Positions 7,601-45,250 of a stretch of DNA of 45,439 nt are shown piece by piece. The notes beneath the pieces are model-generated. The model was not told where the DNA came from, searched no databases, and saw nothing but the letters and a program-made list of their open reading frames with translations. How positions within the stretch are numbered: position 1 is the first letter of the stretch; each line of letters begins with the position of its first letter. The DNA comes from a virus. The stretch spans positions 1 to 45,439 of IMG/VR virus record IMGVR_UViG_3300042369_000167, one strand, 5' to 3'. Position numbers and translations under genes: made by a program.

Positions 7601-8009
7601 AGCACCAGTGGTAAAGAGCGCAGTTAAGCGCGTAGCTAAGAAGGTAGTAACACCCAAAGTACGGGCAACAACGAAACGGGTAGTACCGGGGTTTGTATTA
7701 ATAGCGGCAAATGATGCGTTTCCTACCACACCTAATAGATATAAGGCAGCACTAAAACCTAAGATGGAGTGGATAGCTAATAACCAGCTATGGATTGATA
7801 TGAAAACCAATCGCGTATTCACCCCCGTACTACTAGGTAGTGGTGTCTACTGGATGGATGCCATAACAGGCAGTGTATACAATGTATATACAGGCCAATG
7901 CCAGAGCAACAGCACCATGTGTATTAACCTACGGCATATGGTATGCAATCAGGAAGTAGGCGGGGAGATACTAATAGCAACCAGTCCAACGGAGGGTGGT
8001 GATGTCTAG
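7593..8009 (+). CDS. Basic-tailed phage protein of unknown function
   Basis: This 138-aa protein has a very basic N-terminus (KSAVKRVAKKVVTPKVR) that would bind nucleic acid or membrane phosphates. A compact domain follows, with Cys residues near the C-terminus (GQCQSNSTMCINLRHMVC). It overlaps its neighbours by 8 nt on each side. The family is not recognised. Confidence 0.6.
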   Translation: MSKAPVVKSAVKRVAKKVVTPKVRATTKRVVPGFVLIAANDAFPTTPNRYKAALKPKMEWIANNQLWIDMKTNRVFTPVLLGSGVYWMDAITGSVYNVYTGQCQSNSTMCINLRHMVCNQEVGGEILIATSPTEGGDV

Positions 8010-8154
8010 CTGGCATATTATATGTGTGGTAGATGGTGTAAAGAGGATGTATATCGAGGTGGCAGGCACGGCAGAAGAAGCTATCAAGCAAGTGCTACTA
8101 GAGGCCCCCACAGGTGAGATACAACAAGTAACAGTACGTAACTTAGAGGATTGA
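8002..8154 (+). CDS. Small alpha/beta protein
   Basis: This 50-aa ORF starts behind GGAGGGTGGTG. It reads MSSWHIICVVDGVKRMY, a short beta hairpin, then the helix AEEAIKQVLLEA and a final strand. This size and pattern recall small phage proteins with a strand-strand-helix-strand fold. Function unknown. Confidence 0.55.
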   Translation: MSSWHIICVVDGVKRMYIEVAGTAEEAIKQVLLEAPTGEIQQVTVRNLED

Positions 8155-8155
8155 G

Positions 8156-8380
8156 ATGAATAAGAAAGAGATAGATAGAACATGGACTACTAAGTCAGAG
8201 CTGACATTCATTAAGGGCTTAGGCACATGGACAGACAAGAAGCAAAGCCGTTTAGGACTGCTTAAGAAGTACCAGAATACCATTCACCTACGTTCTAGGT
8301 GGGGCACCATTGATGATGTGGATGTGCATGAGTACATAGATAAGCTAATCGTACTTGATACTAAGGCGTTATACAAATGA
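8156..8380 (+). CDS. Conserved small phage protein
   Basis: This 74-aa protein opens MNKKEIDRTWTTKSELTFIK and contains GLGTW, a pattern (W-x-x-K-x-E-L-x-F-x-x-G-L-G) I have seen in short phage proteins of unknown function. It is basic and appears soluble. Start supported by TTAGAGGATTGAG; its end overlaps the next gene by 4 nt. Confidence 0.65.
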   Translation: MNKKEIDRTWTTKSELTFIKGLGTWTDKKQSRLGLLKKYQNTIHLRSRWGTIDDVDVHEYIDKLIVLDTKALYK

Positions 8381-8691
8381 GCCAGAACCTTAGGATCGCT
8401 GTGTGCGTAGTTATAATGATGTCCTCAACGACGTATGTGTTTGGGCAAGGCTACAGCTATAGCTACAGCCCCCTAAACTACGAGAACAGTAGCGCAAACT
8501 ATAACAACAGTAGTCTGAACTACAGTAACAGCCCTCAAAACTATGAGAACAGCAGTGCTAACTATAACTCCCCCAACGCGGTGTTTGACAGCAAAGGTAA
8601 TCGTATTGGGTACGAAGTAGTATCTCCAGCGGGCATAGTTAACAGGTTTGATAACGCGGGCAACCGTACAAGCTATAGGAGAACTAAATGA
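8377..8691 (+). CDS. Exported Asn/Tyr-repeat protein
   Basis: This 104-aa protein has a signal-peptide-like N-terminus (LRIAVCVVIMMSSTTYVFGQ) with probable cleavage near residue 24. Then come repeats of the form N-Y-x-N-S-S (NYENSSANYNNSS, NYSNSPQNYENSSANY), and a tail NAVFDSKGNRIGYEVVSPAG. Periplasmic proteins with NSPYNY-type repeats followed by an F/YD-x-x-G-N-R-x-G-Y ending are known in proteobacteria, with no defined function. A phage copy would be delivered to the periplasm of the infected cell. It overlaps neighbours by 4 nt on both sides. Confidence 0.65.
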   Translation: MSQNLRIAVCVVIMMSSTTYVFGQGYSYSYSPLNYENSSANYNNSSLNYSNSPQNYENSSANYNSPNAVFDSKGNRIGYEVVSPAGIVNRFDNAGNRTSYRRTK

Positions 8692-8912
8692 AAGCTACCC
8701 CGTTAGAGTCACAACAAGGTGGTGCGCACTACAAAGAGATGGTGATACAGCCCGTAGAGTTTATCTACAAAAACAATATACCTTACATGGAAGGTAACGT
8801 AATCAAGTACGTATGTAGGTGGAAGAAGAAGAACGGTGTTGAGGACTTACACAAAGCGAAGCACTACCTAGAGTTACTAATCCAGTTTGAGACTGATAAA
8901 GAGGAGAAATGA
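8688..8912 (+). CDS. DUF3310 family protein (T7 gp1.7-like domain)
   Basis: This 74-aa protein matches DUF3310 over its whole length: QQGGAHYKEMVIQPVEFI, then EGNVIKYVCRW, then KNGVEDLHKAKHYLELLI. The same domain is part of T7 gp1.7, a nucleotide-kinase-related protein, but this short form has no separate kinase region. Such proteins sit among early phage genes. It overlaps the exported protein gene by 4 nt. Confidence 0.85.
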   Translation: MKATPLESQQGGAHYKEMVIQPVEFIYKNNIPYMEGNVIKYVCRWKKKNGVEDLHKAKHYLELLIQFETDKEEK

Positions 8913-20099: not shown

Positions 20100-23000
20100 T
20101 TAATCTTCTTCATCCTCGTCATACCCACTATGCTTCATTATTGTAGCCCGTAGCTTAGGGGGTATATACACGCCATCCACACTGTTATGCAGGTTGTTGA
20201 CTCGGGTTTTATGTGACTGCGTTAGTGTTTTCCCGCTTATCTCCATTACAGGGAACGCCTTGTTGAACGATGCTATGTTATCAAGGATCTTAGCTTTCAT
20301 CTCATCATCACCGTTGGTATTAGCTAGGTAGAATGCATCCAGCAGGGATTGTTTACGAGTATACATGTGCTGCTCTATCTTCTTTCTAACCCCAGCCCTA
20401 GCATAAGCCTCAGACAGCTCGGCATCAGTGAACCCTAGTATCTGGTTGAACACCTGCAGGCCATCTACATCATCTACAATCTTAGCGCCCTTACGGTTTA
20501 GTGCACCCTCATTAGCGAAGCGGTATGCCTTCAGAGGATTCCGTATGAATGATGGGGATAGTGTTTCTAGTGCACGGTCCGTATGCCCTTGGTTGAATAG
20601 CTCAAGTGCTCTCTGTGGGTTGACAAACAGAGTCGAGTAAGAAGGGCCAAAGAAGTGCTCCATAAAGTATGCAGCCCCTCCAACCTCCGCTAACCGTCGT
20701 TCATCCTCACGCCATACCAACCCGTTGAACCCAGTCCTCGAGGCTATGTCCAGACCTAGTAGTTGGTTTACAGGCCCCTTGAAGTGTAGGTCGCCCACAG
20801 CAAGTTTAACTTGTTCATCAGGATCAAGCGGTTCCTCGTCATCACCAAACATAGCCTGTGCTGTAGAAGCCAGTAAGGAAGCAGCGCCATACAACGGCAT
20901 CCCCTGCACCCCTGCAAATGCGTAGGTCGTACCATATATACCTAACATCTGCTTGAGTGCTAGATCCCTGACTTCCTTAGTCTCGCCCTTGAAGGTGTTA
21001 TAAAACAACTTAGCCATTAGTGCTATCTGTGCTTGGGCAAAGCGTTTGAACGTAAAGGCAACCTTACCAATGTTGTTCTGGAATAGTTGTGGGCCAGCTT
21101 CAGGTAAGGCATGGCTGTGTGCATCTACCGTAGTATTAATAGCAAACGCCCTAGCATCTGCGGGGGACATCTTAGCTCTAGCCAAGTCATATGCAGCTAT
21201 AAGGGTGATCTCACGGTTCATACGCTCTGAGTTCTGGAATAACCAACCTAACCCAGTCTCTACCTTAGACCGCATGCCTGTGTAGTCCTCTGCTGATGTA
21301 CGACGTAGTTCAGTTAGCTCATATCCTACACCACGACGGATTGTGGAGTGATCCAAGGCAGCTTCATACAGATCCTTATACTCTTGGCTTATCTTGGGGT
21401 TCTTACCGAAGGTAAAGTCAGGCATAAACTCCCGGTTGTCATCGAACTTGCCGTTAGCGTACATCTTGAAGGCTCTGTTAAATGCCGCTGTAGTTGCACC
21501 AAGACCATACTTACCAGACAACATAGGTAGTACGATTACAGGCAACTGCGTCAAGTTAACAAATGCAGAAGATGCATTACCTGCGATATGCCAGAAGTAA
21601 CTAAGCCAGCTAAGACGGGAAGGTACTGTGTTAGCTACTGGGTTCTCTACAAACGACTTACCAGTCATCAGAGCTTCATACACATCCTTAATCTCAGTAG
21701 AAGCATCTTCAGCAGCTTCTCGGTTGATGCCAGCATATGCGTTGTCTAGGTCAGGACGGTGCTTCATTGCGGATAACTGATGGGCCATCTTGCTACCTAC
21801 ATCAGCAAACCCTTGAACTACATCCTCGATATAACCCTGCTCACCAGTACGCGCTTGCATTTGCTGACGTAGTGACTGGGATGGCAATAGTGACAGATAC
21901 ATCTGGTATGTGTTGTTTATTACTTCCTTCTTAACTCCACCACGCTGCATCTGTGCAAGAACGTCAGCAATGAAACCGGAAGGAGGTGCCTTACTGTCGT
22001 ACTCAATTTGGGATAACCTAGCAAACTGCTTAAGCCCAGTAGCACCCTTGATACGTGCTAGCTTCATCTCTCTTTCTATGGCTCTAGGGCTTTCACGAGA
22101 TATAGTTACTGACTCACCATCTTTGTCTGTGTAAGTTAACCAGTAATCCCCTTGGCGACGTAATGGGTGATACCAAGCTAGGCTCTTAGACTCAAAGTCA
22201 TTACGCATTGCCTCTACCTTTGAGAGATACTCTCTACCCATCTTTTCTGGAGCCATCTCGGTCAGGATGCTTATGTACTCATCAAAGTGCTTCTTGTACT
22301 CGGCAGCATACTCATTACCTAGGTCTTGCAAAGGCTTAGGCAGGGATTGGTATATCTTAACTAGCTCATGATCCTTGTTCTCATCTTTAGTTGGATCAAT
22401 GTTTGCGATTGATAGCTCAAATGCTACCTTATTAAACTTGCGTACTATCTGTTTAGGGTACTTCTTCAGCAGAGATACACCCTTGTGAGTTAGCTTATCT
22501 ACTATCGACCGTCTATGGTCTGAGTCATTAGCCCTCTGCTCTATGGTGTGCAGTAACTTCTTTAGTGAAGGGAGTATGCCTCCATACTGCGCAATCATAT
22601 TAGGTATGCTGTAGAACCGTAAAGCAGCTTTACGCACAGTGCTAGGTACGGTAGAGAGCGCATCACGAGCATCTTCCATTAGCTTAGGTGAAGAAGATGG
22701 CATGCTGTTTAGTGACTCCCCTACGGAGTTCAGGATAGCTTCCGGGGTGCTAGTTGCTTGTGATTGCTTTACCCCTGTGTTTGATATACGTGCAGCACCA
22801 TACACTAGGTCTACAATATCAGCAGACTTCAACTTGTTTGGGGACATATGAAGTTTAGACAGTGTAGCTACGATGCCAGCCCATAACTCCTTCAACCATC
22901 CAGCAACCTTACCATACTCCTTAGGCTGACCTTTGAGGGGATCAATCTTATACTTGTTAACAGCAATCTCAGTAAAGTATGCAATTACTTCTTGGTTGTA

Positions 23001-26000
23001 CCTGTCGCCCTTCTCCCCTGACAGATCTGCTTTCTCTATAGCTTCTTTAGCAATCAAATGCTCGTTGGTAGCTTTGGCTTTACCTGTAGGCGTTTGCGCT
23101 GCCCATGCAGTTACCTGATTGGCTAGTTTTGCAACTCTGTCTTTACCTATTAGCTTCTCAAGCCCTAAGTGCGCACCTATCTCATGCAGGATAGTCCCAC
23201 GTTCAGCACCCTTACGCATTGCACTAGCTATAAAGTATGCCTTACCTTCATGCACAAATGCCTTAGAGTTAGACTTCTTAGCAGCTTCTTGTAGATGCGC
23301 TGGTAGTTCTGCATGGGTGTTTACAACAACAGGGGGGTTATCCTTAAGCTGTTGTGGTGTGAATAGCGTACTGACCTGTTTATTTATTTCATCGGTAGTA
23401 GTTGCTTCTTCCTTCTTTGTTGTATCCCCTTCTTGTGATGATTGGGGTTCGGGTTCGGGTTCTGGTTTAGTAATAGTTACCTTCCCGGGTTTTTGGGACT
23501 CAGGCTTTGCGGTATATTTTCTTTTAGTCTTAGTAGTTGTACCAAACACATCCCCTGCTAAGTCCTCAGCTTCTTCCTCGACCTTTACTTTGCTGCGTTT
23601 GTTAGCTATTTTATTACGTCTATCTAAGCCTTCTAGCTGTTTAATAGTTTCTGCGCTTAGGTTGTTATCTTCATGTGCTTCTTTTACTCGTGTCTGAGTA
23701 TCCTTCTCAAGCGAAGCAAATGGTACATCTGATTCTTCATTCCATATCTTGGCTGCTGCCCCTAATGCATTTGGTTTCTTCCCTGCTTTTGCAGCTACCT
23801 TTTCCTTTTGTTTGGCCCCCTCATACCAAGCAAGTCCTTGTGGTGTGAGCACATTAGATTTCCAGTTGTGTTTGGGGTACGACTCAGAGATGAGTTCGTG
23901 TAAGGCCGTAGTAATACCAGCTCGTCGATGCCCCTTATCTACCCCCATGTCAGCAGTCTGTGTTGGTATGGCTGGGTCTAGCGTGTACCCTTTTAGCGAG
24001 GCTATATCAGCATGCCCAACTTCAGTACCTGACTCATCAAAGGCTTTTGCCTCACCTTCCATAGGGTCAAATGTTAGGTGGTATTTCTTGCCGTTAGTAC
24101 CAACAAAGTCTTTGGTCAGTGCACTTGGTTTTTTTCCTGTGCTTGGGACAGCTCCTGTAGCTCTGACGTTAGTAGCTCCGCGAGGAACACCCACTGCCTT
24201 TTTGTTAGGCACAACAACTTTTTTAGGCGTGGTTGCCGTTGGAAGTACAGGCTTTTCCACGCGCTTGACAGCTCGTGGTTTGTTAGAACTAAGTTTGCGT
24301 TGATCCTTAGTAGCGGTTTGTTGTCCCTCAGATTCATTTATAACCTCCGGCTTACCGTACTCCGCTTCATGCTCCGCATACATATCATCTATTTCTTCTT
24401 GCATGGGCTGGCGCTTCTCAGCATCAGTAAAGTCTTGTATCTTTTGACGTACCTGTTCAGCCTTTTGCTGGAAGGCTTCTTGCGTTGGTTTCCCCTGCCC
24501 TTGCAGTTGTTTTGATCTGGTGTCAGTAGCTTGTTGGTCATCCTGCTGTGCTTGCTCTTGCTGTGCTTGCAGCTTCTTATGTTCAGCATCTACTGCATCT
24601 AGGTGAGCAAGCAATTGCTCTACATTACCTTTTCCGGCGTAGCCCTCTAGTATGCTCTTAGCTTCTGCTACATTCTCTGGGTCAGTTAGATCACCATACT
24701 TAGTCAGGTCAGCTCTTACCTTCTTGCCTGCTATGCCATATGTATCAAGCATATCCTCATTAATAACCAGCGGATCAACCTGCATAGCTCCTACAGCGGG
24801 TTTACCCTTTTCAGTAAATAGCTCCCCTTGACCTTCGGTTGATACATCTGGTACTTCCTCTTCTTGCGTGGGTAGTTGACCTCTAGGTCCAGCAAACATC
24901 TCTTCCTGTACACCTACCCCAGTTGCCTGATCGGTCATCTGCTTCTTCATCGCTACTACATCCTTTATCGTCTTTCCGGGAAGGTAGAATGCGATGTTAT
25001 CCTTCAGGTGCTGGGTTCCTTGATCTGTTTGTAGCAACATTTCAACTTGCTTGGCCTTAGTATCTTGCTCTGCCATCTCATTCTTAGCAGCCCCAAAGCC
25101 AGCCATGTCAGCCTTAGTTTGATCCTCGTAACTCTTAGCTCTTTCTATCTCGTCTGCTGCCTTAGCTTTAGCTGCTTCTACCTGTGCAGCCTTTTCTGCT
25201 TCAGCAAAGTCCTTTTCTTCTTGCTTGCTAATAGCTGAACTGCGTTCTGCCAACCTACTAGCACCACCAACAGGACCCATCAGTGCAGTCTGGTATGCAG
25301 TATCCGTGTACTCTTTAATAGCATCAGGGGTAGTAAGGGGTAGACCTGCTTGGTAGCGTTCTAGCGCTTGCTGTATAACTTCGCCGGGGACTTCTAGCGT
25401 AGCCATCTTAGCTGTACCCTTAGCAAATGCCATCTTCTTTGATTCTTGTGCTAGCTTCTGTACAGCTAGTGCTTCTGCTTGTGGTGTACCAAGTAGACGG
25501 GAGTCAATACCCAGCATCTTTCCAAAGCCCTTACCCAAAGCAAGAGCCGCTGTAGCTACATCAATACCCGCCTGTGGTACTGCTGTGCCATATGCAGAAG
25601 CTAGGTCTACTTGCTTGCCTTCTTGGGCTTGACGCTCAATGTTAGCACCGGCTTGTGGGCCAAATGATGTACCGAATGCACCTGCAGCACCACCAAGTAA
25701 CCCAGCAATAGCTCTGCCTTGTGGGGGTAGTGGTAGTCTAGCACCTGCCATAGCACCTGCCTTAGCACCAGCACCCATAGCGGCTAGGTTTGGCACTTGT
25801 TCAGCAATTGCTCTAGGGGTTTGTGCGGCTAGTTCTTTTGCTGCGGCTAAAGGACCTTGGGTTTCGTGTATATACTTTAGGTAGTCTAGGCTAGCACCGG
25901 GCTTCTCTTCTATTTCTTTTTGTCTTTCGAGTCCAGCCAACCCTGCTTCTTGCCCACCGTCAAAAGGAGCTGATATTGCAGTACGGATAGAGGATAACCC

Positions 26001-26165
26001 GCGCTTTGCCCCGCCAACAAGTGACTCTCGCATAGACTCAGCGGGTTTAATACGGGCTTCATGTTGCGGGATGATGTCATTTTCTATAGCCCCAATGATT
26101 GCTTGCTGGGACATTGTATCGGGAAATCGTACCTGCCCAATCCCCTTGATGTTGACAATAGGCAT
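20100..26165 (-). CDS. Giant polyvalent internal virion/ejection protein
   Basis: This 2021-aa protein is last in the late arm. It begins IKGIGQVRFPDTMSQQ, then a Gly/Ala-zipper region (about 85-210). A charged helical part follows, then a GNAT-like region (about 690-800, with GVDKGHRRAGITTALHELI and LTPQGLAWYEG). A possible zincin-type peptidase lies near 990-1005 (TILHEIGAHLGLEKLIG, an HExxxH form). A long helical C-terminal part has ASSAFVNLTQLPVIVLPML (about 1525-1550), characteristic of the LPD38-type region of large polyvalent phage proteins. Such proteins are packed in the virion and injected with DNA to modify the host. ORF size and order support ejection; enzyme activities are inferred. 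Confidence 0.8.
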   Translation of the reverse strand: MPIVNIKGIGQVRFPDTMSQQAIIGAIENDIIPQHEARIKPAESMRESLVGGAKRGLSSIRTAISAPFDGGQEAGLAGLERQKEIEEKPGASLDYLKYIHETQGPLAAAKELAAQTPRAIAEQVPNLAAMGAGAKAGAMAGARLPLPPQGRAIAGLLGGAAGAFGTSFGPQAGANIERQAQEGKQVDLASAYGTAVPQAGIDVATAALALGKGFGKMLGIDSRLLGTPQAEALAVQKLAQESKKMAFAKGTAKMATLEVPGEVIQQALERYQAGLPLTTPDAIKEYTDTAYQTALMGPVGGASRLAERSSAISKQEEKDFAEAEKAAQVEAAKAKAADEIERAKSYEDQTKADMAGFGAAKNEMAEQDTKAKQVEMLLQTDQGTQHLKDNIAFYLPGKTIKDVVAMKKQMTDQATGVGVQEEMFAGPRGQLPTQEEEVPDVSTEGQGELFTEKGKPAVGAMQVDPLVINEDMLDTYGIAGKKVRADLTKYGDLTDPENVAEAKSILEGYAGKGNVEQLLAHLDAVDAEHKKLQAQQEQAQQDDQQATDTRSKQLQGQGKPTQEAFQQKAEQVRQKIQDFTDAEKRQPMQEEIDDMYAEHEAEYGKPEVINESEGQQTATKDQRKLSSNKPRAVKRVEKPVLPTATTPKKVVVPNKKAVGVPRGATNVRATGAVPSTGKKPSALTKDFVGTNGKKYHLTFDPMEGEAKAFDESGTEVGHADIASLKGYTLDPAIPTQTADMGVDKGHRRAGITTALHELISESYPKHNWKSNVLTPQGLAWYEGAKQKEKVAAKAGKKPNALGAAAKIWNEESDVPFASLEKDTQTRVKEAHEDNNLSAETIKQLEGLDRRNKIANKRSKVKVEEEAEDLAGDVFGTTTKTKRKYTAKPESQKPGKVTITKPEPEPEPQSSQEGDTTKKEEATTTDEINKQVSTLFTPQQLKDNPPVVVNTHAELPAHLQEAAKKSNSKAFVHEGKAYFIASAMRKGAERGTILHEIGAHLGLEKLIGKDRVAKLANQVTAWAAQTPTGKAKATNEHLIAKEAIEKADLSGEKGDRYNQEVIAYFTEIAVNKYKIDPLKGQPKEYGKVAGWLKELWAGIVATLSKLHMSPNKLKSADIVDLVYGAARISNTGVKQSQATSTPEAILNSVGESLNSMPSSSPKLMEDARDALSTVPSTVRKAALRFYSIPNMIAQYGGILPSLKKLLHTIEQRANDSDHRRSIVDKLTHKGVSLLKKYPKQIVRKFNKVAFELSIANIDPTKDENKDHELVKIYQSLPKPLQDLGNEYAAEYKKHFDEYISILTEMAPEKMGREYLSKVEAMRNDFESKSLAWYHPLRRQGDYWLTYTDKDGESVTISRESPRAIEREMKLARIKGATGLKQFARLSQIEYDSKAPPSGFIADVLAQMQRGGVKKEVINNTYQMYLSLLPSQSLRQQMQARTGEQGYIEDVVQGFADVGSKMAHQLSAMKHRPDLDNAYAGINREAAEDASTEIKDVYEALMTGKSFVENPVANTVPSRLSWLSYFWHIAGNASSAFVNLTQLPVIVLPMLSGKYGLGATTAAFNRAFKMYANGKFDDNREFMPDFTFGKNPKISQEYKDLYEAALDHSTIRRGVGYELTELRRTSAEDYTGMRSKVETGLGWLFQNSERMNREITLIAAYDLARAKMSPADARAFAINTTVDAHSHALPEAGPQLFQNNIGKVAFTFKRFAQAQIALMAKLFYNTFKGETKEVRDLALKQMLGIYGTTYAFAGVQGMPLYGAASLLASTAQAMFGDDEEPLDPDEQVKLAVGDLHFKGPVNQLLGLDIASRTGFNGLVWREDERRLAEVGGAAYFMEHFFGPSYSTLFVNPQRALELFNQGHTDRALETLSPSFIRNPLKAYRFANEGALNRKGAKIVDDVDGLQVFNQILGFTDAELSEAYARAGVRKKIEQHMYTRKQSLLDAFYLANTNGDDEMKAKILDNIASFNKAFPVMEISGKTLTQSHKTRVNNLHNSVDGVYIPPKLRATIMKHSGYDEDEED

Positions 26166-36196: not shown

Positions 36197-36510
36197 GTCA
36201 TAGGTCCTATCATTCGAGTGGATGTTTCAATCAGGGCTTTAGTTGTAGACTCATTAGCTTTTACCATCTCATTTCTAAATGATTCTACTGCTGCACCCGT
36301 CTGTCTTTGTTGCTGGGAGTTTTCGATCAGCAGCATGGGGGTCCAAGCTATTGCACAATCTCCATTAGAGACTGTCTCCCCCGTCTGAGGATTCATACCT
36401 TGTACATGCACCCAGAACCGGCACTTGACCAGCTCACCATCTTTGATAGCACCATCCTCAATGCACTCAGAACCCATCAAAGGACATAAAATCTTAGCAT
36501 CTTTAGCCAT
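36193..36510 (-). CDS. Small Cys-containing phage protein
   Basis: This 105-aa protein has Cys residues at CPLMGSECIEDG, KCRFWVHVQGMNPQTGE and GDCAIAWTP, with a helical C-terminus (VESFRNEMVKANESTTKAL). The pattern C-x6-C ... C-x-F-W ... C-A-x-A-W is found in small phage proteins between tail and lysis genes; metal binding is possible. Function unknown. It overlaps the fibre gene stop by 1 nt. Confidence 0.65.
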   Translation of the reverse strand: MAKDAKILCPLMGSECIEDGAIKDGELVKCRFWVHVQGMNPQTGETVSNGDCAIAWTPMLLIENSQQQRQTGAAVESFRNEMVKANESTTKALIETSTRMIGPMT

Positions 36511-37520
36511 TAGTCTTTACTCGCAATAATGAAGTCGTAGAATTTTAACCCTTGTGTTAAGGAGTGAGAATGAGAGCCACTACCTCCTGTTGACTGCGTT
36601 TGAACTGTAACAAAATTTGAAACAGGGCGACCTGATGATGCCCCTGCAGCGCCTGATGTAGTTGTTTCAGGGTATCCGTGCGTATGTGCTGGAATATCTG
36701 CAATCTGTAATGTGTATCCCCCAGTAGCAGTCTGCGCAGCCCATGTACTAAAGGCAACTGAACCCCCGCTTGGGGTAACTGACCCAGTAACAAACCTAAG
36801 AATAGAATCATTAATAGCTGCTGTTGTATCTTTAGTCCAGCCCGTAGGAGCCGCTGTTTGCTGAAACCCGATACGTGTTCCTGAAGCAAAAGCTGGTGCA
36901 TTAGCAGTTGAAGCCCATGCAGTACCGGTAGACGATAGTATATTACCCGCTGTGCCGGGAGCTACGGCACTTACAACCCCTGCAGTTCCTACTAATGCAC
37001 CTGTAAGGGTTGTAGCTAGTGTTGTAGCTCCTAATGCTGTTAGGTTGTTACCTGCAATGAAGTTGCCTGTAGTAGCGGCGTTACCGTTTATTACTCCACC
37101 TGCTCCAAACCCCGTTAGTATAAAAAAATCTAACCCATCACAGTACACTACATATTTACCAAAAGGGACTGTAGCTACAGCTCCGGTAGCAGTTCTCATG
37201 ATTATGTTCTTATTACCTAGTGGCTCATCAGTGAAGTTATCAATAATGTAGGTCTTTGCCACTGCCGGGGCTGTTACATAGCAGTCAGCAGAACGAAGCC
37301 CTGTAAACCGTAGAACCGCTGATCTAGCTTCATCGGTAGTGCCTGCGTTAGCAGTTAAGATATAACTACCAGAACCGGTAATAGATATTGTGGTTACTGT
37401 AGTTATAGAATCAACTAGTAATGAGCATATGTTCTTGTTGGTTGTATCACCCCAAGACCCTGATTGCTCACCGTTGGCTATGTTCTCAAGTCGTAGGTTA
37501 TTTGCATAAGTTGATGGCAT
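36510..37520 (-). CDS. Tail fibre with C-terminal tail-collar domain (fibre 1)
   Basis: This 336-aa protein starts MPSTYANNLRLENIANGEQS, a virion-attachment opening nearly identical to that of the next-upstream gene. It continues with a beta-rich shaft (LTGALVGTAGVVSAVAPGT) and a tail-collar domain: FQQTAAPTGWTKDTTA, FSTWAAQ, IPAHTHGY, GSHSHSLTQ, ending FIIASKD. The collar domain forms trimeric tips that bind receptors. The tip insert GRPVSNFVTVQTQSTGGSG is unlike that of the paralogue. It begins at a TAATG junction with the paralogue. Confidence 0.85.
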   Translation of the reverse strand: MPSTYANNLRLENIANGEQSGSWGDTTNKNICSLLVDSITTVTTISITGSGSYILTANAGTTDEARSAVLRFTGLRSADCYVTAPAVAKTYIIDNFTDEPLGNKNIIMRTATGAVATVPFGKYVVYCDGLDFFILTGFGAGGVINGNAATTGNFIAGNNLTALGATTLATTLTGALVGTAGVVSAVAPGTAGNILSSTGTAWASTANAPAFASGTRIGFQQTAAPTGWTKDTTAAINDSILRFVTGSVTPSGGSVAFSTWAAQTATGGYTLQIADIPAHTHGYPETTTSGAAGASSGRPVSNFVTVQTQSTGGSGSHSHSLTQGLKFYDFIIASKD

Positions 37521-38554
37521 TAGTCTTTACTCGCAATAATAGAGTCATAGTACTTAATGGCTTGGGTAAGTGGGTGAGTATGGCTTGTACCACCCCCTGC
37601 TGGATAGTTAGTTGCAGCTAGTAGATCATGGTCATCGGGGTTAACAGTTCTGGAGCCATCTATCGAACCATCATGACTATAGCCCTGAGAAACAAAATAT
37701 GGAGTAGTGTTACCTGACCCGCCTGTATGGGTATGGATTGGCATTTGAGCAGTTGTTAGCGTGTGCGCCCCAGTATCAGTCTGTGCAGCCCATGTACTAA
37801 CCCCCACAGATCCGCCAGAACCCCCACCAGTCCCAGTAACAAACCTAAGAATAGAATCATTAATGGCAGCAGTCGTGTCCTTAGTCCAGCCCGTAGGAGC
37901 AGTTGCCTGTGGAAATATGAGCTTAGTACCTGCTGTAAATGGAGGAGTGTTCGATGCTGAAGCCCAAGCCGTACCATTAGAAGTCAATACATTACCAGAA
38001 GTGCCGGGGGCTACAGCACTTACAACTCCTGCTGTTCCTACTAATGCACCTGTAAGGGTTGTAGCTAGTGTTGTGACTCCTGTAACCCCTAAGGTCCCTG
38101 TAATACCTACATTACCCGTAACAGTTCCACCAGCAGCAAATCCCGTCTGTACAAATGTATCAATACCATCACAGTACACGGTGTATATACCAAAAGGGAT
38201 TGTAGCAGCTACAGCACCCGCATCAGTGCGGATAATTAGGTTTTGTTTAGCTAGTGCAAGATTGGTGTAGTTATCAATGAGGTAGGTCTTAGCAACGGTA
38301 GGGATGTATATAGTACAAGCAGCAGCGATATCGCCGGTAAACTTTAGAACTGCATTCCTAGACTCATCAGTTACCCCATTAAATGAAGTAAGTGTATAGG
38401 TAGCTAACCCTGTAATGCTTGTTGTAGCTAACCCTGCAATAGAGTCAACTAACAAAGAGCATATGTTCTTGTTGGTTGTTTCACCCCAACTCCCAGACTG
38501 TTCGCCGTTGGCTATGTTCTCAAGTCGTAGGTTATTTGCGTAAGTTGATGGCAT
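37520..38554 (-). CDS. Tail fibre with C-terminal tail-collar domain (fibre 2)
   Basis: This 344-aa protein is a paralogue of the 336-aa fibre: the same start, the same central LTGALVGTAGVVSAVAPGT and the same collar core (FPQATAPTGWTKDTTA, FSTWAAQ-like, MPIHTHTG, TSHTHPLTQ, SIIASKD). The middle (CTIYIPTVAKTYLIDNY) and the tip differ; the tip carries QGYSHDGSIDGSRTVNPDDH. It probably forms a trimeric receptor-binding fibre. The pair suggests two receptor specificities or a mixed fibre. Confidence 0.85.
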   Translation of the reverse strand: MPSTYANNLRLENIANGEQSGSWGETTNKNICSLLVDSIAGLATTSITGLATYTLTSFNGVTDESRNAVLKFTGDIAAACTIYIPTVAKTYLIDNYTNLALAKQNLIIRTDAGAVAATIPFGIYTVYCDGIDTFVQTGFAAGGTVTGNVGITGTLGVTGVTTLATTLTGALVGTAGVVSAVAPGTSGNVLTSNGTAWASASNTPPFTAGTKLIFPQATAPTGWTKDTTAAINDSILRFVTGTGGGSGGSVGVSTWAAQTDTGAHTLTTAQMPIHTHTGGSGNTTPYFVSQGYSHDGSIDGSRTVNPDDHDLLAATNYPAGGGTSHTHPLTQAIKYYDSIIASKD

Positions 38555-38591
38555 GATGGGCCCAAGTATGTTCGTGTATTATATATGAATT

Positions 38592-38963
38592 TTATTCTTT
38601 GGGCGTAGTAAATATTATCGACGTGACTGAGGGGATTGTCCTATTACCCGATTCTACAAAGGTCATAGAGGGCTCCAGTATATCCTCCTCCTTTACCCCG
38701 GTTCTTAGCGCATGGATGCAGTAAGCCAGACTATCATCCTCTAATGCTTCTATGAAGTGTAACTTATTTTTAACTACATATACTATCTGCGGGGATACAA
38801 ATGTCTTTTCCCTACCCTCAACAGTTATCCTGAATGACCCCCTTGCTAGCAAAGTTATGTGGTCATATGTGTGCATATGTGGCTTATTTGTGTCTCCCTT
38901 ATGCTCAAAATGCATTTGCCGTGTCCATAAGTTCGATACGCATGCTATTTTATCCTTTACCAT
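38592..38963 (-). CDS. Cupin-domain protein 2
   Basis: This 123-aa protein has a cupin pattern: PHMHTYDHITLLARGSFRIT (H-x-H), then VVKNKLHFIEALEDDSLAYC with the second-motif His. Single-domain cupins bind metals and may act on small molecules or sugars. The IEALED segment is shared with the cupin encoded immediately upstream, so the two are paralogues. Their position inside the tail-fibre block suggests a virion or fibre-related role; function unproven. Confidence 0.75.
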   Translation of the reverse strand: MVKDKIACVSNLWTRQMHFEHKGDTNKPHMHTYDHITLLARGSFRITVEGREKTFVSPQIVYVVKNKLHFIEALEDDSLAYCIHALRTGVKEEDILEPSMTFVESGNRTIPSVTSIIFTTPKE

Positions 38964-38974
38964 AGTTGCCCCCC

Positions 38975-39277
38975 TTATATAGTTGACACAGGAATAATAT
39001 CTTTTAGCGCTGCAAACACATTGACAAACACAGTGCCATCTTCCAGTGCTTCTATTTCATGCCATTCATCAGCAACTAGGTTCACGGGTTGCGTGTTCTT
39101 AGTCATCACTATTTCTTTGCCTTCCTTACGGACTACTATAGAACCTGCGTGGCATACAGACGCATGGCTGAATGTATGGTCATGTTTAGGCAGTCCTTCA
39201 CCCGTATTGACATGGTATATATTCAACTGCGCCCCATCATATGTAAGACTGTGTGCTGGAGCTACAGACATAACCAT
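38975..39277 (-). CDS. Cupin-domain protein 1
   Basis: This 100-aa protein is a single cupin: LPKHDHTFSHASVCHAGSIV (H-x-H first motif) and NLVADEWHEIEALEDGTVFV (second motif His). It shares the H-x-IEALED segment with the next gene. It lies between the small tail protein and the long fibres. Its partner, substrate and metal are unknown. Confidence 0.75.
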   Translation of the reverse strand: MVMSVAPAHSLTYDGAQLNIYHVNTGEGLPKHDHTFSHASVCHAGSIVVRKEGKEIVMTKNTQPVNLVADEWHEIEALEDGTVFVNVFAALKDIIPVSTI

Positions 39278-39615
39278 CAGAATTCCTGCGTCCCAGTAGA
39301 GGTCACATTACCTATAGGCTGTCTATGGGCCTGCATATCCTGTTCCTGCAGTAGGTCTACCGCCTCTTGCGCTGTATGCGCCCCATCCCATAGATTCTGG
39401 CAGTCTACCGCCCATACAGGCAGCTCTGTGATACGCTGATTAGCAGGTTTATGTCCACCAAAGCTAACCTCATTAAACTCTACCCACCCACCATTCGCAT
39501 GGTCCCACTGTAGGGCCGATACCCCCGCCGGTACGTGGTTATCTATGGTAGGTATTACATAGGCCATACCATCTACATATACTGCGCTATCCGCAGCCAC
39601 TATAGTAAGTCTCAT
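39277..39615 (-). CDS. Tail fibre-associated small protein
   Basis: This 112-aa protein opens MRLTIVAADSAVYVDGMAYV and has ALQWDHANGGWVEF, then a helical C-terminus (DGAHTAQEAVDLLQEQDMQA). The opening is typical of small proteins encoded next to phage tail fibres, sometimes called tail-fibre assembly or structural components. The specific role is not established. Confidence 0.65.
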   Translation of the reverse strand: MRLTIVAADSAVYVDGMAYVIPTIDNHVPAGVSALQWDHANGGWVEFNEVSFGGHKPANQRITELPVWAVDCQNLWDGAHTAQEAVDLLQEQDMQAHRQPIGNVTSTGTQEF

Positions 39616-39628
39616 ATTTATCCCATAC

Positions 39629-40129
39629 CTAGTTTTTAGAGGCCATAATTATATCTACATATAACACTGATAGATTAAGCGAAGCGTCCATTGATCCACC
39701 ACTTGCATGCGTGTGCGACTGCCCACCTCCAATAGGCGCAGTACTTCCTGCCGGAGCGCCAGCACCCATCCCCGTATAAAACCCCCCATTAGTGTTGCTA
39801 TTTTTATACGTAACGACCCCCCCTGCCACAAAGTGAGTATGCAGTGGGATCTGCGTTTGATCTAATGTGGTGCTTCCTGCCACTATTGATGTCGCCATTG
39901 TTTGCGCAGTAAGCGCCGTACTAAATGCAGTGATACCCCCCGATCCGGCGGTGCCTGATACCACCCGCAGTGTCTTATTATCATGCGCCGTTAGTTTTGT
40001 CCACCCCGTCGGGGCTGATGTTTGCTGGAATAACATAATAGTACCGGATGCAATGGGCACTTGCGTGGGTACGGGACAGGGCAGTATGTTTATGTATGTC
40101 CCTGTATTTACTCTATTTCTATATAGCAT
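39629..40129 (-). CDS. Short tail-collar protein 3
   Basis: This 166-aa protein has a short N-terminal anchor (MLYRNRVNTGTYINILPC) and one collar domain: IMLFQQTSAPTGWTKLTAHD, RVVSGTAGSGG, TQIPLHTHFV, GGGQSHTHASGG, ending VDIIMASKN. The tip insert (KNSNTNGGFYTGMGAGAP) is specific. It is one of three consecutive homologous genes and probably a short receptor-binding fibre. Confidence 0.82.
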   Translation of the reverse strand: MLYRNRVNTGTYINILPCPVPTQVPIASGTIMLFQQTSAPTGWTKLTAHDNKTLRVVSGTAGSGGITAFSTALTAQTMATSIVAGSTTLDQTQIPLHTHFVAGGVVTYKNSNTNGGFYTGMGAGAPAGSTAPIGGGQSHTHASGGSMDASLNLSVLYVDIIMASKN

Positions 40130-40134
40130 AATAT

Positions 40135-40650
40135 TTAGTTTTTCTGCGCAAGTATTATATCTACATACTGCACCGACAATTGTAGCGTAGGAGACACGGG
40201 GGTCCCTGATGTACTATGCTGGTGACTACCCCCACCGCCAATTAATTGGCTGACTTGCGGTCCAGTGGAACCCGGCTGAACTACTGGCTGGAGGTAAGAC
40301 CCGGAGGCAAAACATTTTCTTTGGGTTATGCCACCTACCAAATGGGTATGGGCGGGAATCTGTGTCAGTGATAATGTAGTAGCTGCCCCCACAAGCGTAT
40401 TTGCTGCAAATGATACTGACTTATCTGTGAATACTGTACTAAAGCCTGTCGTACCTCCCGAACTAACGGTCCCTGCTACTAACCTTAACATCTTATCATT
40501 ATGTGTGGTTATTTTTGTCCATCCAACTGGAGCCGCTGTTTGCTGAAATATAGATATACTCCCTAACGGTATCGTATAACTGAAATTACTAATACTGTAG
40601 GGTAGTGATCCTATATTGCTGGCTGTGTTCTTACTATTTCTATGTATCAT
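40135..40650 (-). CDS. Short tail-collar protein 2
   Basis: This 171-aa protein repeats the layout of its neighbours: anchor MIHRNSKNTASNIGSLPY, collar SIFQQTAAPVGWTKITTHND, LVAGTVSSGG, TQIPAHTHLVGG, GGGGSHQHST, ending VDIILAQKN. The tip insert (QRKCFASGSYLQPVVQPG) is unlike those of the other copies. It is a paralogue in the collar array. Confidence 0.82.
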   Translation of the reverse strand: MIHRNSKNTASNIGSLPYSISNFSYTIPLGSISIFQQTAAPVGWTKITTHNDKMLRLVAGTVSSGGTTGFSTVFTDKSVSFAANTLVGAATTLSLTQIPAHTHLVGGITQRKCFASGSYLQPVVQPGSTGPQVSQLIGGGGSHQHSTSGTPVSPTLQLSVQYVDIILAQKN

Positions 40651-40652
40651 AT

Positions 40653-41183
40653 CTAATTCTTTTGGGCTAGTATGATGTCTACATAGTTAACACCTAGTGG
40701 TACAGCAGCTGATATAGTAGTAGAAGCATGCGTATGTCCTAAGCCACCACCTATACCACTACTGCTCGTAGATAGTACCCCGGGGGGTACATGATTCCAT
40801 GCAGAATAATACACGCAGGGGACCGGATAGCTACATGTATTAAGTGTAGCCCCTTGTACTATATGCGTATGCCCCGGCATTGTAGGTATTGTTATAGTTG
40901 TACTATTTAAAGAAAGCCCAGTTACAGTTGGGGTTTGGCTAGTAAACACTGTAGTAAATGGTAGTGTGCCACCTGCACTAGCCGTTCCTGAGACTATCCG
41001 CAATGCCTTATTATTGTGTGTTGTTAGTTTAGTAAAACCCGTTGGCGCTGTAGATTGACCAAATACAGCTATATCCCCCGGATTAATAGGTGCATCAACA
41101 GGCCATGCATAAGGCAGGGTATTTACCACACCCCCAGCACCATTACTATCTTCGCTGATATTAACCCTGTTACGGTATATCAT
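40653..41183 (-). CDS. Short tail-collar protein 1
   Basis: This 176-aa protein has the anchor MIYRNRVNISEDSNGAG, collar IAVFGQSTAPTGFTKLTTHN, RIVSGTASAGG, PTMPGHTHIVQG, GGGLGHTHAST, ending VDIILAQKN. The tip insert has CSYPVPCVYYSAWNHVPP with two Cys that could form a disulphide. It is the first of the three short collar genes to be transcribed. Confidence 0.82.
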   Translation of the reverse strand: MIYRNRVNISEDSNGAGGVVNTLPYAWPVDAPINPGDIAVFGQSTAPTGFTKLTTHNNKALRIVSGTASAGGTLPFTTVFTSQTPTVTGLSLNSTTITIPTMPGHTHIVQGATLNTCSYPVPCVYYSAWNHVPPGVLSTSSSGIGGGLGHTHASTTISAAVPLGVNYVDIILAQKN

Positions 41184-41184
41184 A

Positions 41185-42330
41185 TTAGGCGGCGATTCTT
41201 TCCCATGTATTAGACTGGTTTACGTTCAGTGTTGTCCATACAGTTTCTCGCCCAATTGTAAAAAATGTACCTTGTACTCCAGTAGGAAATACATAAGAAC
41301 TTAATTGAACATTTACATTTCCAATAGACCCTGTAGCTTGTAATCCTGATGGGTATAATATAACCGCATTTCCTTCCGCTATAACATTGCCTATAGCACC
41401 GGTAGCTTGTAAACCATCATGGATTAATATTATTACATCATTTGCTACTACTATTTCGTCGCCTATAGCACCGGTTGCTTCTACGCCTGTAACGCTAACA
41501 AACCCTAGTCCTGTCTCGTTAGTATCACCTACAGCAGTAGTAGCTTCTACGCCTACAAGTAAGACTTGCCCGGGATTTTGTGTGCGTAGCCGTACATCAT
41601 TTATAGCATCCCCATTTACTACAGAACGGAGGAATACGTCATTGTTGCCAGTAGGTACAATAGGGCCATAGAACCCAGTGTTATCTACTATGAAAGGTTT
41701 AAACCCTCTAGTCTGGTCATTACTTACAGCAATCACAACTGAATTACTTGTTGGTACCGCTGATACAACACCAAACGGAGACATAGCTGGTATCGCACTA
41801 TTAACACCCGGATTAGCTGTATTAGCGTTGAATGTTAATAGCTTACCTCTACCCCCATTAAGCGTACTACTGTTGAACACATATCCCGGGTTCCCCATGT
41901 TAGGGGCAGGTATAAAGTTAAACGGTTTTACTATTAAGTTCTTAGCCCATATAACAGGCCAGTCTTGTGGTATTGACGGGAATGCTATTCCCGGTATGGG
42001 TAGGGGCGCTGCTGCTGCAGGGACTGGAGGGTCAGAAGAAAATGATGATAATAGTGTAGTCCGTGAGGCTGGAACTACCGTGTCTATTGTCGGTGCTAGA
42101 GGTAAAATGTAAGGCGCATAAGCCGCCGCATACCTACCCCCGGGATTGTTTATATTAGCATTCGCACGGGCTATTAACTTGCCCATACCCCCATCAAGCG
42201 TACTTAGAGAGAACCTATAGTTAGGATCCCCCATATTAGGCGCAGGGATACCATCAAAGGTGCTTTGTATTACATTCTTAGCCCATATAGCAGACCGGTC
42301 TTGTAGGGGTGCGGGGAAGGCGATTGGCAT
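41185..42330 (-). CDS. Repeat-module virion protein with ATGAIG repeats
   Basis: This 381-aa protein carries two copies (residues 3-72 and 115-180) of a module of about 65 aa: AFPAPLQDRSAIWAKNVIQ, then IPAPNMGDPNYRFSLSTLDG, then NNPGG. Its C-terminal third has five near-repeats of G-x-x-A-T-G-A-I-G (near residues 260, 282, 306, 329 and 351, the last degenerate), each on a beta strand. This repeat type is found in phage fibre and structural proteins. The N-terminal 72 residues closely match those of the next gene. A tail or head-fibre role is inferred. Confidence 0.75.
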   Translation of the reverse strand: MPIAFPAPLQDRSAIWAKNVIQSTFDGIPAPNMGDPNYRFSLSTLDGGMGKLIARANANINNPGGRYAAAYAPYILPLAPTIDTVVPASRTTLLSSFSSDPPVPAAAAPLPIPGIAFPSIPQDWPVIWAKNLIVKPFNFIPAPNMGNPGYVFNSSTLNGGRGKLLTFNANTANPGVNSAIPAMSPFGVVSAVPTSNSVVIAVSNDQTRGFKPFIVDNTGFYGPIVPTGNNDVFLRSVVNGDAINDVRLRTQNPGQVLLVGVEATTAVGDTNETGLGFVSVTGVEATGAIGDEIVVANDVIILIHDGLQATGAIGNVIAEGNAVILYPSGLQATGSIGNVNVQLSSYVFPTGVQGTFFTIGRETVWTTLNVNQSNTWERIAA

Positions 42331-42339
42331 TGCAGTGCC

Positions 42340-43557
42340 TTACTGTATTAGGGGTGTTGCTACTAGTGTCCTTAACGAAGTGCCAAACAAGTCTGGTTGG
42401 TTTGCTACAGCTTTATATTCTACTAAGAAGAACGGCCCACTGTATGTACCCAGCCCAGCTACTTGCCAGTTTCCTTGGTTGTCCGAAGTAGTTTCTGCTA
42501 CTAATACTTTATCAAATGAGCGGAACACAGAAACTAAACAGTTAGCCAGTGGCACACCATACTGGTCACGACTTACCCCTGTCAACTGCTGGTTATAGGC
42601 AGGTAGCAGTTTAGTAAAGATAATACTTGCATCTACAACTGAATTAACTGTAGGAACAGCTGGGGTAGTAGCACTCTGTTCTCCTATCTGAATTCTATCA
42701 GGTAGACTACCCGGGTTCTGCAAGTTGGCTGTTGATTTTGGCAATAACTTACCCATACCCCCATTAAGCGTGGCTATCGAGAATATATAATTAGGGTTCC
42801 CCAGATTAGGTGCGGGGATACGGCTACCAGCCGGTTTCTGTATTAAGCTCTTAGCAAATATATATGACCAGCCAAGTAGTGCTGGAGGAAAAGGTATTCC
42901 TGTTATAGGAATAGGTAGTGGGAATGGTGTAGCATCAAATGCATACGTCAATATAACTTCTATATTAACTGGCTGCTGCTTTATGACTGGCGGTATAAAT
43001 GGCGTATACGGTATAGCAAAATTACCACCCGGATTATTCAGGTTATTATTTGCTTTAGGTATAGCTTGAATTACACAACCACCCCCAAGAGTATTGTATG
43101 AAAACTTATAGTTGGGGTTCGCCATGTTCGGCGCAGGAACCACATAAAATGGTTTCTGTATTAAATTCTTAGCCCATGTAGCAGACCATCCTTGTATGGG
43201 TGCGGGGAATGCTACCCCCATATCCGCTATAGGTAATATTGTGCCTACAGCCCCAGTGTAATCAAATATTAAGTTAAATAATCTATTGTTAGTTGCGGGT
43301 GCTACTGTATCAACTGTAGGGGATAGGGGGGTAATAATGGGCATATAAGCTGCCGCATACTTACCCCCCGGATTATTTGTATTAGCATTCGACTTAGCTA
43401 ATAACTTCCCCATGCCTCCATCCAGCGTACCTAAAGAAAACCTATAGTTAGGGTTCCCCAAATTAGGAGCAGGAACCCCATTAAAAGTCTTCTGTACTAC
43501 ATTCTTAGCCCATATAGCAGACCAATCTTGTAGAGGTGCTGGGAAGGCAATTGGCAT
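42340..43557 (-). CDS. Repeat-module virion protein with C-terminal Ig-like domain
   Basis: This 405-aa protein has three copies (residues 3-72, 114-184, 219-285) of the module AFPAPLQDWSAIWAKN ... VPAPNLGNPNYRFSLGTL ... NNPGG. After a linker, residues 325-385 form a beta-sandwich-like domain (LTGVSRDQYGVPLANCLVSV, ETTSDNQGNWQVAGLG), similar in style to carboxypeptidase-regulatory or Cna-B folds used for binding. It is a paralogue of the adjacent 381-aa gene with a different C-terminus. No clear ribosome site precedes the start. Confidence 0.75.
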   Translation of the reverse strand: MPIAFPAPLQDWSAIWAKNVVQKTFNGVPAPNLGNPNYRFSLGTLDGGMGKLLAKSNANTNNPGGKYAAAYMPIITPLSPTVDTVAPATNNRLFNLIFDYTGAVGTILPIADMGVAFPAPIQGWSATWAKNLIQKPFYVVPAPNMANPNYKFSYNTLGGGCVIQAIPKANNNLNNPGGNFAIPYTPFIPPVIKQQPVNIEVILTYAFDATPFPLPIPITGIPFPPALLGWSYIFAKSLIQKPAGSRIPAPNLGNPNYIFSIATLNGGMGKLLPKSTANLQNPGSLPDRIQIGEQSATTPAVPTVNSVVDASIIFTKLLPAYNQQLTGVSRDQYGVPLANCLVSVFRSFDKVLVAETTSDNQGNWQVAGLGTYSGPFFLVEYKAVANQPDLFGTSLRTLVATPLIQ

Positions 43558-44605: not shown

Positions 44606-45250
44606 TTAGTTAACTGGAAGCCGTACTTGCCCACTACGGTATGCGTCTCGGCGGTCTTTTCCATCACCCAAGCCCTTCAGTAACTGAAGTGACTCACTAA
44701 AATGCTTGGCATAATACCCAATAATATCAGCCTCGGCTTTCATAAATATAGCTGCTTCTGTTAATGCGCCATATAATAACACAGAGTCAAAATTATTCCC
44801 AAGCCATGTAGTACCTGAGGCTGCAGTTGTTATACTCTCTGGGTACCCATAGTAATGCAATTCTACAGTATACGCCAGATCCGGTGTAGGTCCAATAATA
44901 TAGGTAGTAGCATCAAGCTGCGCATAGTGTCTAGGTATTCCTGTTGCTGATGGATAAGGGTATGCAGTGCGTATAAAATTAACGTCCTTATTCAATAGAA
45001 ATGACTGCGCCAGTGTTGTAGGTGCAACTACAGCTAAAGAGAAAGAAGACAGATAATCTGCGGGCAGTGTAATATACTGCGTCCCTGCTACTAATGCTGA
45101 TGTCTGATTTATTCTTGTTGCTGGTAGCTGTACTGAGTTTATTACTGCCTGTTCTGCTTGCCTTACAAACGTAGGGATAGCCGCTACGAAGTCAGTCTCG
45201 TAGTTCTCACAAAACGATTGTATAGAAGCATTTAGCTCATTATAGTTCAT
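44606..45250 (-). CDS. Head-tail adaptor-like protein
   Basis: This 214-aa protein fits the SU10-type adaptor family: NYNELNASIQSFCENYETDF, FVRQAEQAVINSVQLPA, YITLPADYLSSFSLAV, YIIGPTPDLAYTVELHYYGY, and SVLLYGALTEAAIFMKAE, ending KGLGDGKDRRDAYRSGQ. Such proteins form a ring that joins the portal to the tail. This marks the upstream (right) flank as the portal/capsid region. A small 51-aa gene is encoded upstream. Confidence 0.78.
   Translation of the reverse strand: MNYNELNASIQSFCENYETDFVAAIPTFVRQAEQAVINSVQLPATRINQTSALVAGTQYITLPADYLSSFSLAVVAPTTLAQSFLLNKDVNFIRTAYPYPSATGIPRHYAQLDATTYIIGPTPDLAYTVELHYYGYPESITTAASGTTWLGNNFDSVLLYGALTEAAIFMKAEADIIGYYAKHFSESLQLLKGLGDGKDRRDAYRSGQVRLPVN

Follow-up and report, generated by a model that had tools for sequence, protein, structure and literature searches.

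Five putative receptor-binding tip genes with HxH-bounded variable inserts in the late block of a tailed phage

T-even phages reportedly exchange specificity by recombination at conserved motifs. Swapping of adhesin specificity between conserved motifs in these phages is credited to Tetart et al. (1998) in PMC12529663, and metal-binding HxH motifs in a tail-fibre tip have been described for T4 gp37 (PMC11705849). Phages with multiple receptors are also known, including phiKp24 (with 14) (PMC11414711), and mosaicism at the level of domains has been described for the receptor-binding proteins of phages (PMC10684548).

The DNA analyzed here (the window) is a virus record of 45,439 bases from a tailed phage. 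Its plus strand carries a replication block (DNA polymerase, helicase and primase/helicase), and the late genes are on the minus strand. The late block contains five ORFs, all on the minus strand and referred to below as collar ORFs, that form a five-slot set of small tips and are a new variant of the known multi-receptor and adhesin-swapping systems. As in the distal tail fibre of T-even phages (gp37), the HxH motif is repeated in the tip and variable segments are bounded by conserved motifs; in contrast to gp37, the window has one domain of ∼150 aa with two HxH motifs, placed on five separate genes with two anchor types, and three of the proteins are very small. Several co-encoded putative receptor-binding proteins with conserved N-terminal and variable C-terminal parts, and recombination between them, are features shared with the phages of PMC11414711. 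Those systems are tailspikes joined by XD/TD domains, whereas the window tips are small HxH domains, and general Pfam and PHROGs scans of the window returned nothing of the XD/TD branching kind. Tip modules are swapped on a conserved N-terminal background, as in the mosaicism of PMC10684548, but the unit exchanged in the window is an insert of 30-50 codons inside the tip domain and not a whole C-terminal domain. By protein similarity the nearest named phages were Roseobacter phage CRP-361 and Synechococcus phage S-SCSM1, and a distant nucleotide search among named phages gave one weak match. A 964-aa virion protein had only distant relatives, which were found in metagenome-assembled genomes of Flavobacteriaceae and Alphaproteobacteria.

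Gene layout and relationships of the five proteins

The two long fibres are F336 (336 aa, 36510-37520, minus strand) and F344 (344 aa, 37520-38554, minus strand). F336 consists of an N-terminal anchor (MPSTYANNLRLENIANGEQSGSWG...), a linker and a C-terminal HxH tip domain and matched phrog_31104 (E 4e-8); F344 is its duplicate, with the same anchor and a different tip. The three short proteins, S166 (166 aa, 39629-40129), S171 (171 aa, 40135-40650; phrog_5795 tail protein, E 7e-5) and S176 (176 aa, 40653-41183), are likewise encoded on the minus strand and have a short leader followed by the HxH tip domain. All five ORFs were found where the sequence-only reading had placed them, and they are homologous far beyond chance: when S166 was used as a query within the record, the other four were recovered at E 2e-35 to 7e-11, and pairwise BLASTP gave E-values of ∼1e-119 for the long pair, 1e-30 to 1e-39 among the short proteins and 1e-7 to 1e-17 between the two groups. 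The motifs F-x-Q-x-x-A-P-x-G-x-T-K, L-R-x-V-x-G, G-G, P-x-H-T-H, G-G-x-x-x-H-x-H and D-x-I-x-A-x-K were invariant in all five proteins. Compared with the landmarks listed earlier, the second motif reads HSH, HTH or HQH and the 176-aa copy has GFTK.

The variable insert is located between IPxHTH and GGxSHxH, so that two HxH motifs frame it in all five window proteins and in the aligned relatives. It is rich in Gly, Ser, Thr and Asn and variable in length. The inserts compared were those of F336 (35 aa, GYPETTTSGAAGASSG..., 36573-36677), F344 (48 aa, 37583-37726), S166 (39 aa, 39716-39832), S171 (39 aa, 40225-40341) and S176 (42 aa, 40737-40862), all on the minus strand. As had been proposed, each copy carries a different insert after IPxHTH.

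The genes had been described as an array of five paralogues built by duplication. Their homology is clear, but they fall into two families, one made up of the long pair and the other of the short triplet, with three non-collar genes between them (38592-38963, 38975-39277 and 39277-39615, minus strand). F336 and F344 were 60% identical at the amino acid level and 72% at the nucleotide level over the first ∼800 nt, while S166, S171 and S176 were 40-44% identical and had a common leader of ∼25 residues (M-x-x-R-N-x-x-N...LP). A stem of ∼200 aa is thus used twice and a leader of ∼25 aa three times, with one C-terminal domain on both. In a tree of the frame, from which the insert was excluded, the three short proteins and their orthologues formed one clade (support 0.78), the two long ones were placed elsewhere, and the common ancestor of all five spanned 150 of the 176 sequences. 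This topology rules out a single five-fold duplication series and indicates that the short genes were triplicated and the long one duplicated separately. In L041 every short slot had a counterpart with which it paired in the tree, and in L042 this was also true of S166 and S171, which argues that the short slots are old.

These relationships also bear on a reading without a repertoire, in which each slot has a structural role of its own, for example as fibre tip, as branching adaptor, in the neck or in capsid decoration, and only one or two of the proteins contact the host receptor. The two very different anchors among the five would suit this explanation, as would the orthology of slots across lineages (L041; S166 and S171 in L042), which is expected of distinct fixed roles. 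The short proteins S166, S171 and S176 have no shaft and could act elsewhere, for example in capsid decoration or at the neck. In L034 (3453-4942) a triplet-like short leader (MIYRNRTN...) is found on a different C-terminal domain, which would make this leader class a general attachment piece; a 309-aa protein with repeated DKAIFGYG units comes next in that record. Set against these points is the divergence centred on the insert in all three short and both long slots, described below, for which a part with a structural role alone would have no need. We consider this explanation rather unlikely.

The two genes at 38592-39277 (minus strand) encode small proteins related to each other (E 8e-7), of which the 123-aa one is cupin-like (Pfam Cupin_2, E 6e-4, below the cut-off). 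The third gene between the two families encodes a 112-aa protein (39277-39615, minus strand) directly downstream of the short triplet. No family match was obtained for it, and its homologues come after collar genes in L019, L022, L024, L025 and L027; it is possible that it acts as a partner or chaperone. Ahead of the five genes in transcription order are a conserved gene for a structural protein (44606-45250, phrog_2941), a homologue of phrog_644 and genes of 183, 405 and 381 aa; after them come genes for a small protein that is conserved, for lysozyme and for other virion components. Five other assemblies (L006-L009 and L017) carry the array with 99.99-100% identity over 8.6-15.3 kb, the L007 assembly ending inside the last fibre gene. 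Since these assemblies contain the same array, an assembly artefact was ruled out as its source.

At least one collar ORF was present in 187 non-redundant loci, which were retrieved by similarity to the five window proteins and include many fragments, so that the counts serve as a guide and not as a census: 119 loci had one, 49 two, 10 three, four had four and five had five. The number of collar tips had been called unusual. Five is the maximum among these loci and every five-copy locus belongs to the window's own clade, but multi-copy loci as such are not rare.

The tip domain and its possible function

The name tail collar did not survive as a Pfam assignment. No Pfam-A family was found for any of the five proteins at E ≤ 0.1, the phage tail collar family PF07484 included, and in PHROGs the proteins matched families of unknown function or generic tail families. 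A profile built from 26 relatives matched two solved tail fibres, 9qgo (E 3.7e-13, residues 235-415) and 9nxk (E 4e-4), and both alignments took in the two HxH motifs. These were the only solved chains matched at E ≤ 10; in contrast to them, the chains of T4 gp12 and gp37 gave no match to the profile. Both entries were deposited with three identical chains, and no paper on either of them was found in the literature searched. AlphaFold2 monomer models of S171 and F344 had low confidence in the tip (pLDDT mostly about 40-60), which a trimeric, intertwined fold would explain. Foldseek gave only a weak match for the F344 model, the phage Solidus tailspike (E 4e-3, probability 1.00). It plausibly arises through the N-terminal beta domain, the sole part of the model predicted with confidence. 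Matches of F344 to AbmU (E 7e-4) were left aside as likely compositional.

By analogy with the solved tail fibres, we infer that each gene would yield a homotrimeric tip. Its HxH motifs may bind metal along the trimer axis, and its insert would form the receptor-contacting surface. With five different inserts, several binding specificities could be available to a single virion or to the population. Homologous recombination, with crossovers in or near the conserved HxH-coding blocks, would be the main source of new ones.

Insert replacement among relatives

Among relatives of the window, it is the insert between the two HxH motifs that changes as a unit. In the F344 slot, L016 and L011 differed at 11 of 846 nt before the insert, 26 of 81 inside it and none of 78 after it (26/81 in the insert against 11/924 outside, P=2.6e-22). 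The L011 insert was close to that of the diverged L042 (8/81 differences), while the two differed at 229 of 843 nt upstream, and four different inserts were found in this slot across relatives. In the F336 slot, L039 and L045 differed at 17 of 840 nt before the insert, 55 of 90 inside it and 6 of 75 after it (55/90 against 23/915, P=7e-48). In both pairs the segment between conserved motifs has been replaced with nearly unchanged flanks, and the borders lie at or near the HxH-coding blocks; in some other pairs, such as L016/L010, they lie within the frame. The S166, S171 and S176 slots showed the same trend, with divergence centred on the insert. For S166, dS was ∼0.01 upstream, 0.23-0.64 in the insert and ∼0.4 after it, and the jump in the insert argues for recombination rather than point mutation alone. 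That tips are exchanged in close relatives while anchors stay, as the sequence-only reading had envisaged, was borne out by an insert that is swapped and a frame and anchor that are kept.

Single inserts could also be followed across backgrounds. The F336 insert of the window was unchanged in L010, L016, L011 and L039, with no synonymous change at an upstream dS of 0.25-0.35. It also recurred, on a different anchor, in the 446-aa fibre of L054, L056 and L058 (81% nucleotide identity over 460 nt), where the L054 insert differed from it at 7 of 90 nt. The slots change separately, since L011 and L016 share the F336 insert and differ in the F344 insert.

Such a concentration of variation in one short segment is also what a dedicated diversification device, a DGR or a site-specific inversion, might produce. 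Reverse transcriptase (PF00078) was absent from nine records including the window, and the resolvase/invertase serine recombinase (PF00239) from nine records; the records are fragments, and the controls were positive. The inverted repeats in the region were weak and imperfect. Moreover, the insert differences are unrelated cassettes of varying length and not substitutions at fixed sites. A device of this kind is highly improbable, and the earlier suggestion of a switchable host range finds no support as far as a switching device is meant. Drift of low-complexity Gly/Ser/Thr loops under weak constraint, with apparent cassettes formed by chance, would allow inserts of the observed composition and variable length. 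It is hardly credible in view of block replacement with sharp borders in pairs that are otherwise about 98% identical, and of an F336 insert that has no synonymous change in backgrounds as diverged as those above. Relaxed constraint could still lie behind part of the variability, although the frames stay open and the inserts move as blocks.

The reading that we consider likely is that the locus provides five slots for receptor-binding tips, which are supplied by the exchange of cassettes with HxH borders. Judged from sequence comparison, the choice of the bacterium to be recognised probably lies with the insert. The specificity-setting segment would then be readable from population data, as 30-50 codons between two HxH motifs, with five slots per genome and several alleles per slot. 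This bears on how phages without a DGR or an inversion switch change hosts, and on the prediction of receptor specificity from sequence.

Matched inserts in sister phages

In sister phages two collar proteins are often encoded within a few kb of each other, the typical combination being a protein of 700-1350 aa with a fibre of 335-470 aa. Across 25 such pairs, inserts of the same genome had an identity of 0.61 and those of different genomes one of 0.24 (P 5e-5 in a permutation test, the lowest value that 20,000 shuffles allow). The frames followed the slot, with identities of 0.66 and 0.69 within a slot across genomes and 0.59 between slots within a genome. At least one insert pair with an identity of at least 0.5 occurred in 18 of 50 multi-collar loci (99% level of the null, 0.39). 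The matched tract was sharply bounded: in fifteen pairs pS rose from 0.19 in the insert to 0.67 and 0.75 in the two flanks. The match within one genome stops at the HxH borders, and other genomes have unrelated inserts. Loci with matched inserts were L049/L105, L050, L051/L104, L052, L068, L069, L071/L112, L077, L094, L106, L107, L108, L113, L114, L227, L269 and L209, in the last of which three collar proteins share nearly the same insert. Among the inserts of the window, none of the ten pairs exceeded the null, the identity being at most 0.31 (95% level of the null, 0.32).

Matched inserts on two proteins of one genome contradict chance drift as well, and the pattern agrees with gene conversion of the insert or with its repeated acquisition in pairs. 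A match restricted to the insert is reasonable if this segment sets the target; under the same assumption, both a matched pair and an unmatched repertoire can be understood. The HxH-bounded insert could be a mobile specificity cassette with two modes, an unmatched five-slot repertoire in the window and, in the sisters, cassette-confined gene conversion between two virion proteins that keep the same specificity; we find the case for this two-mode reading evenly balanced. If it is true, the match between tips would require two separate virion structures, formed by different tail proteins, to recognise the same receptor. No paper on paired tail fibres that evolve in concert or undergo gene conversion was found in the literature searched, which is weak evidence of absence, and the matched tips of the sister phages may be new.

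Further features were seen around the fibre genes and elsewhere in the late block. The adjacent 381- and 405-aa genes (41185-43557) contain internal repeats related to each other. Different proteins replace them in relatives such as L010, where only the C-terminal repeat part of the 381-aa protein is recognisable. The C-terminal third of a 2021-aa late protein (20100-26165) matched a PHROG of DarB-like antirestriction proteins and other giant phage proteins. Small genes of oxygenase type recur among the fibre genes: the window has the cupin-like pair, L010 a 2OG-Fe(II) oxygenase flanked by its two long fibres (8217-8780), and L034 a 2OG-Fe(II) oxygenase of a different family right after the long fibres (7678-8241).
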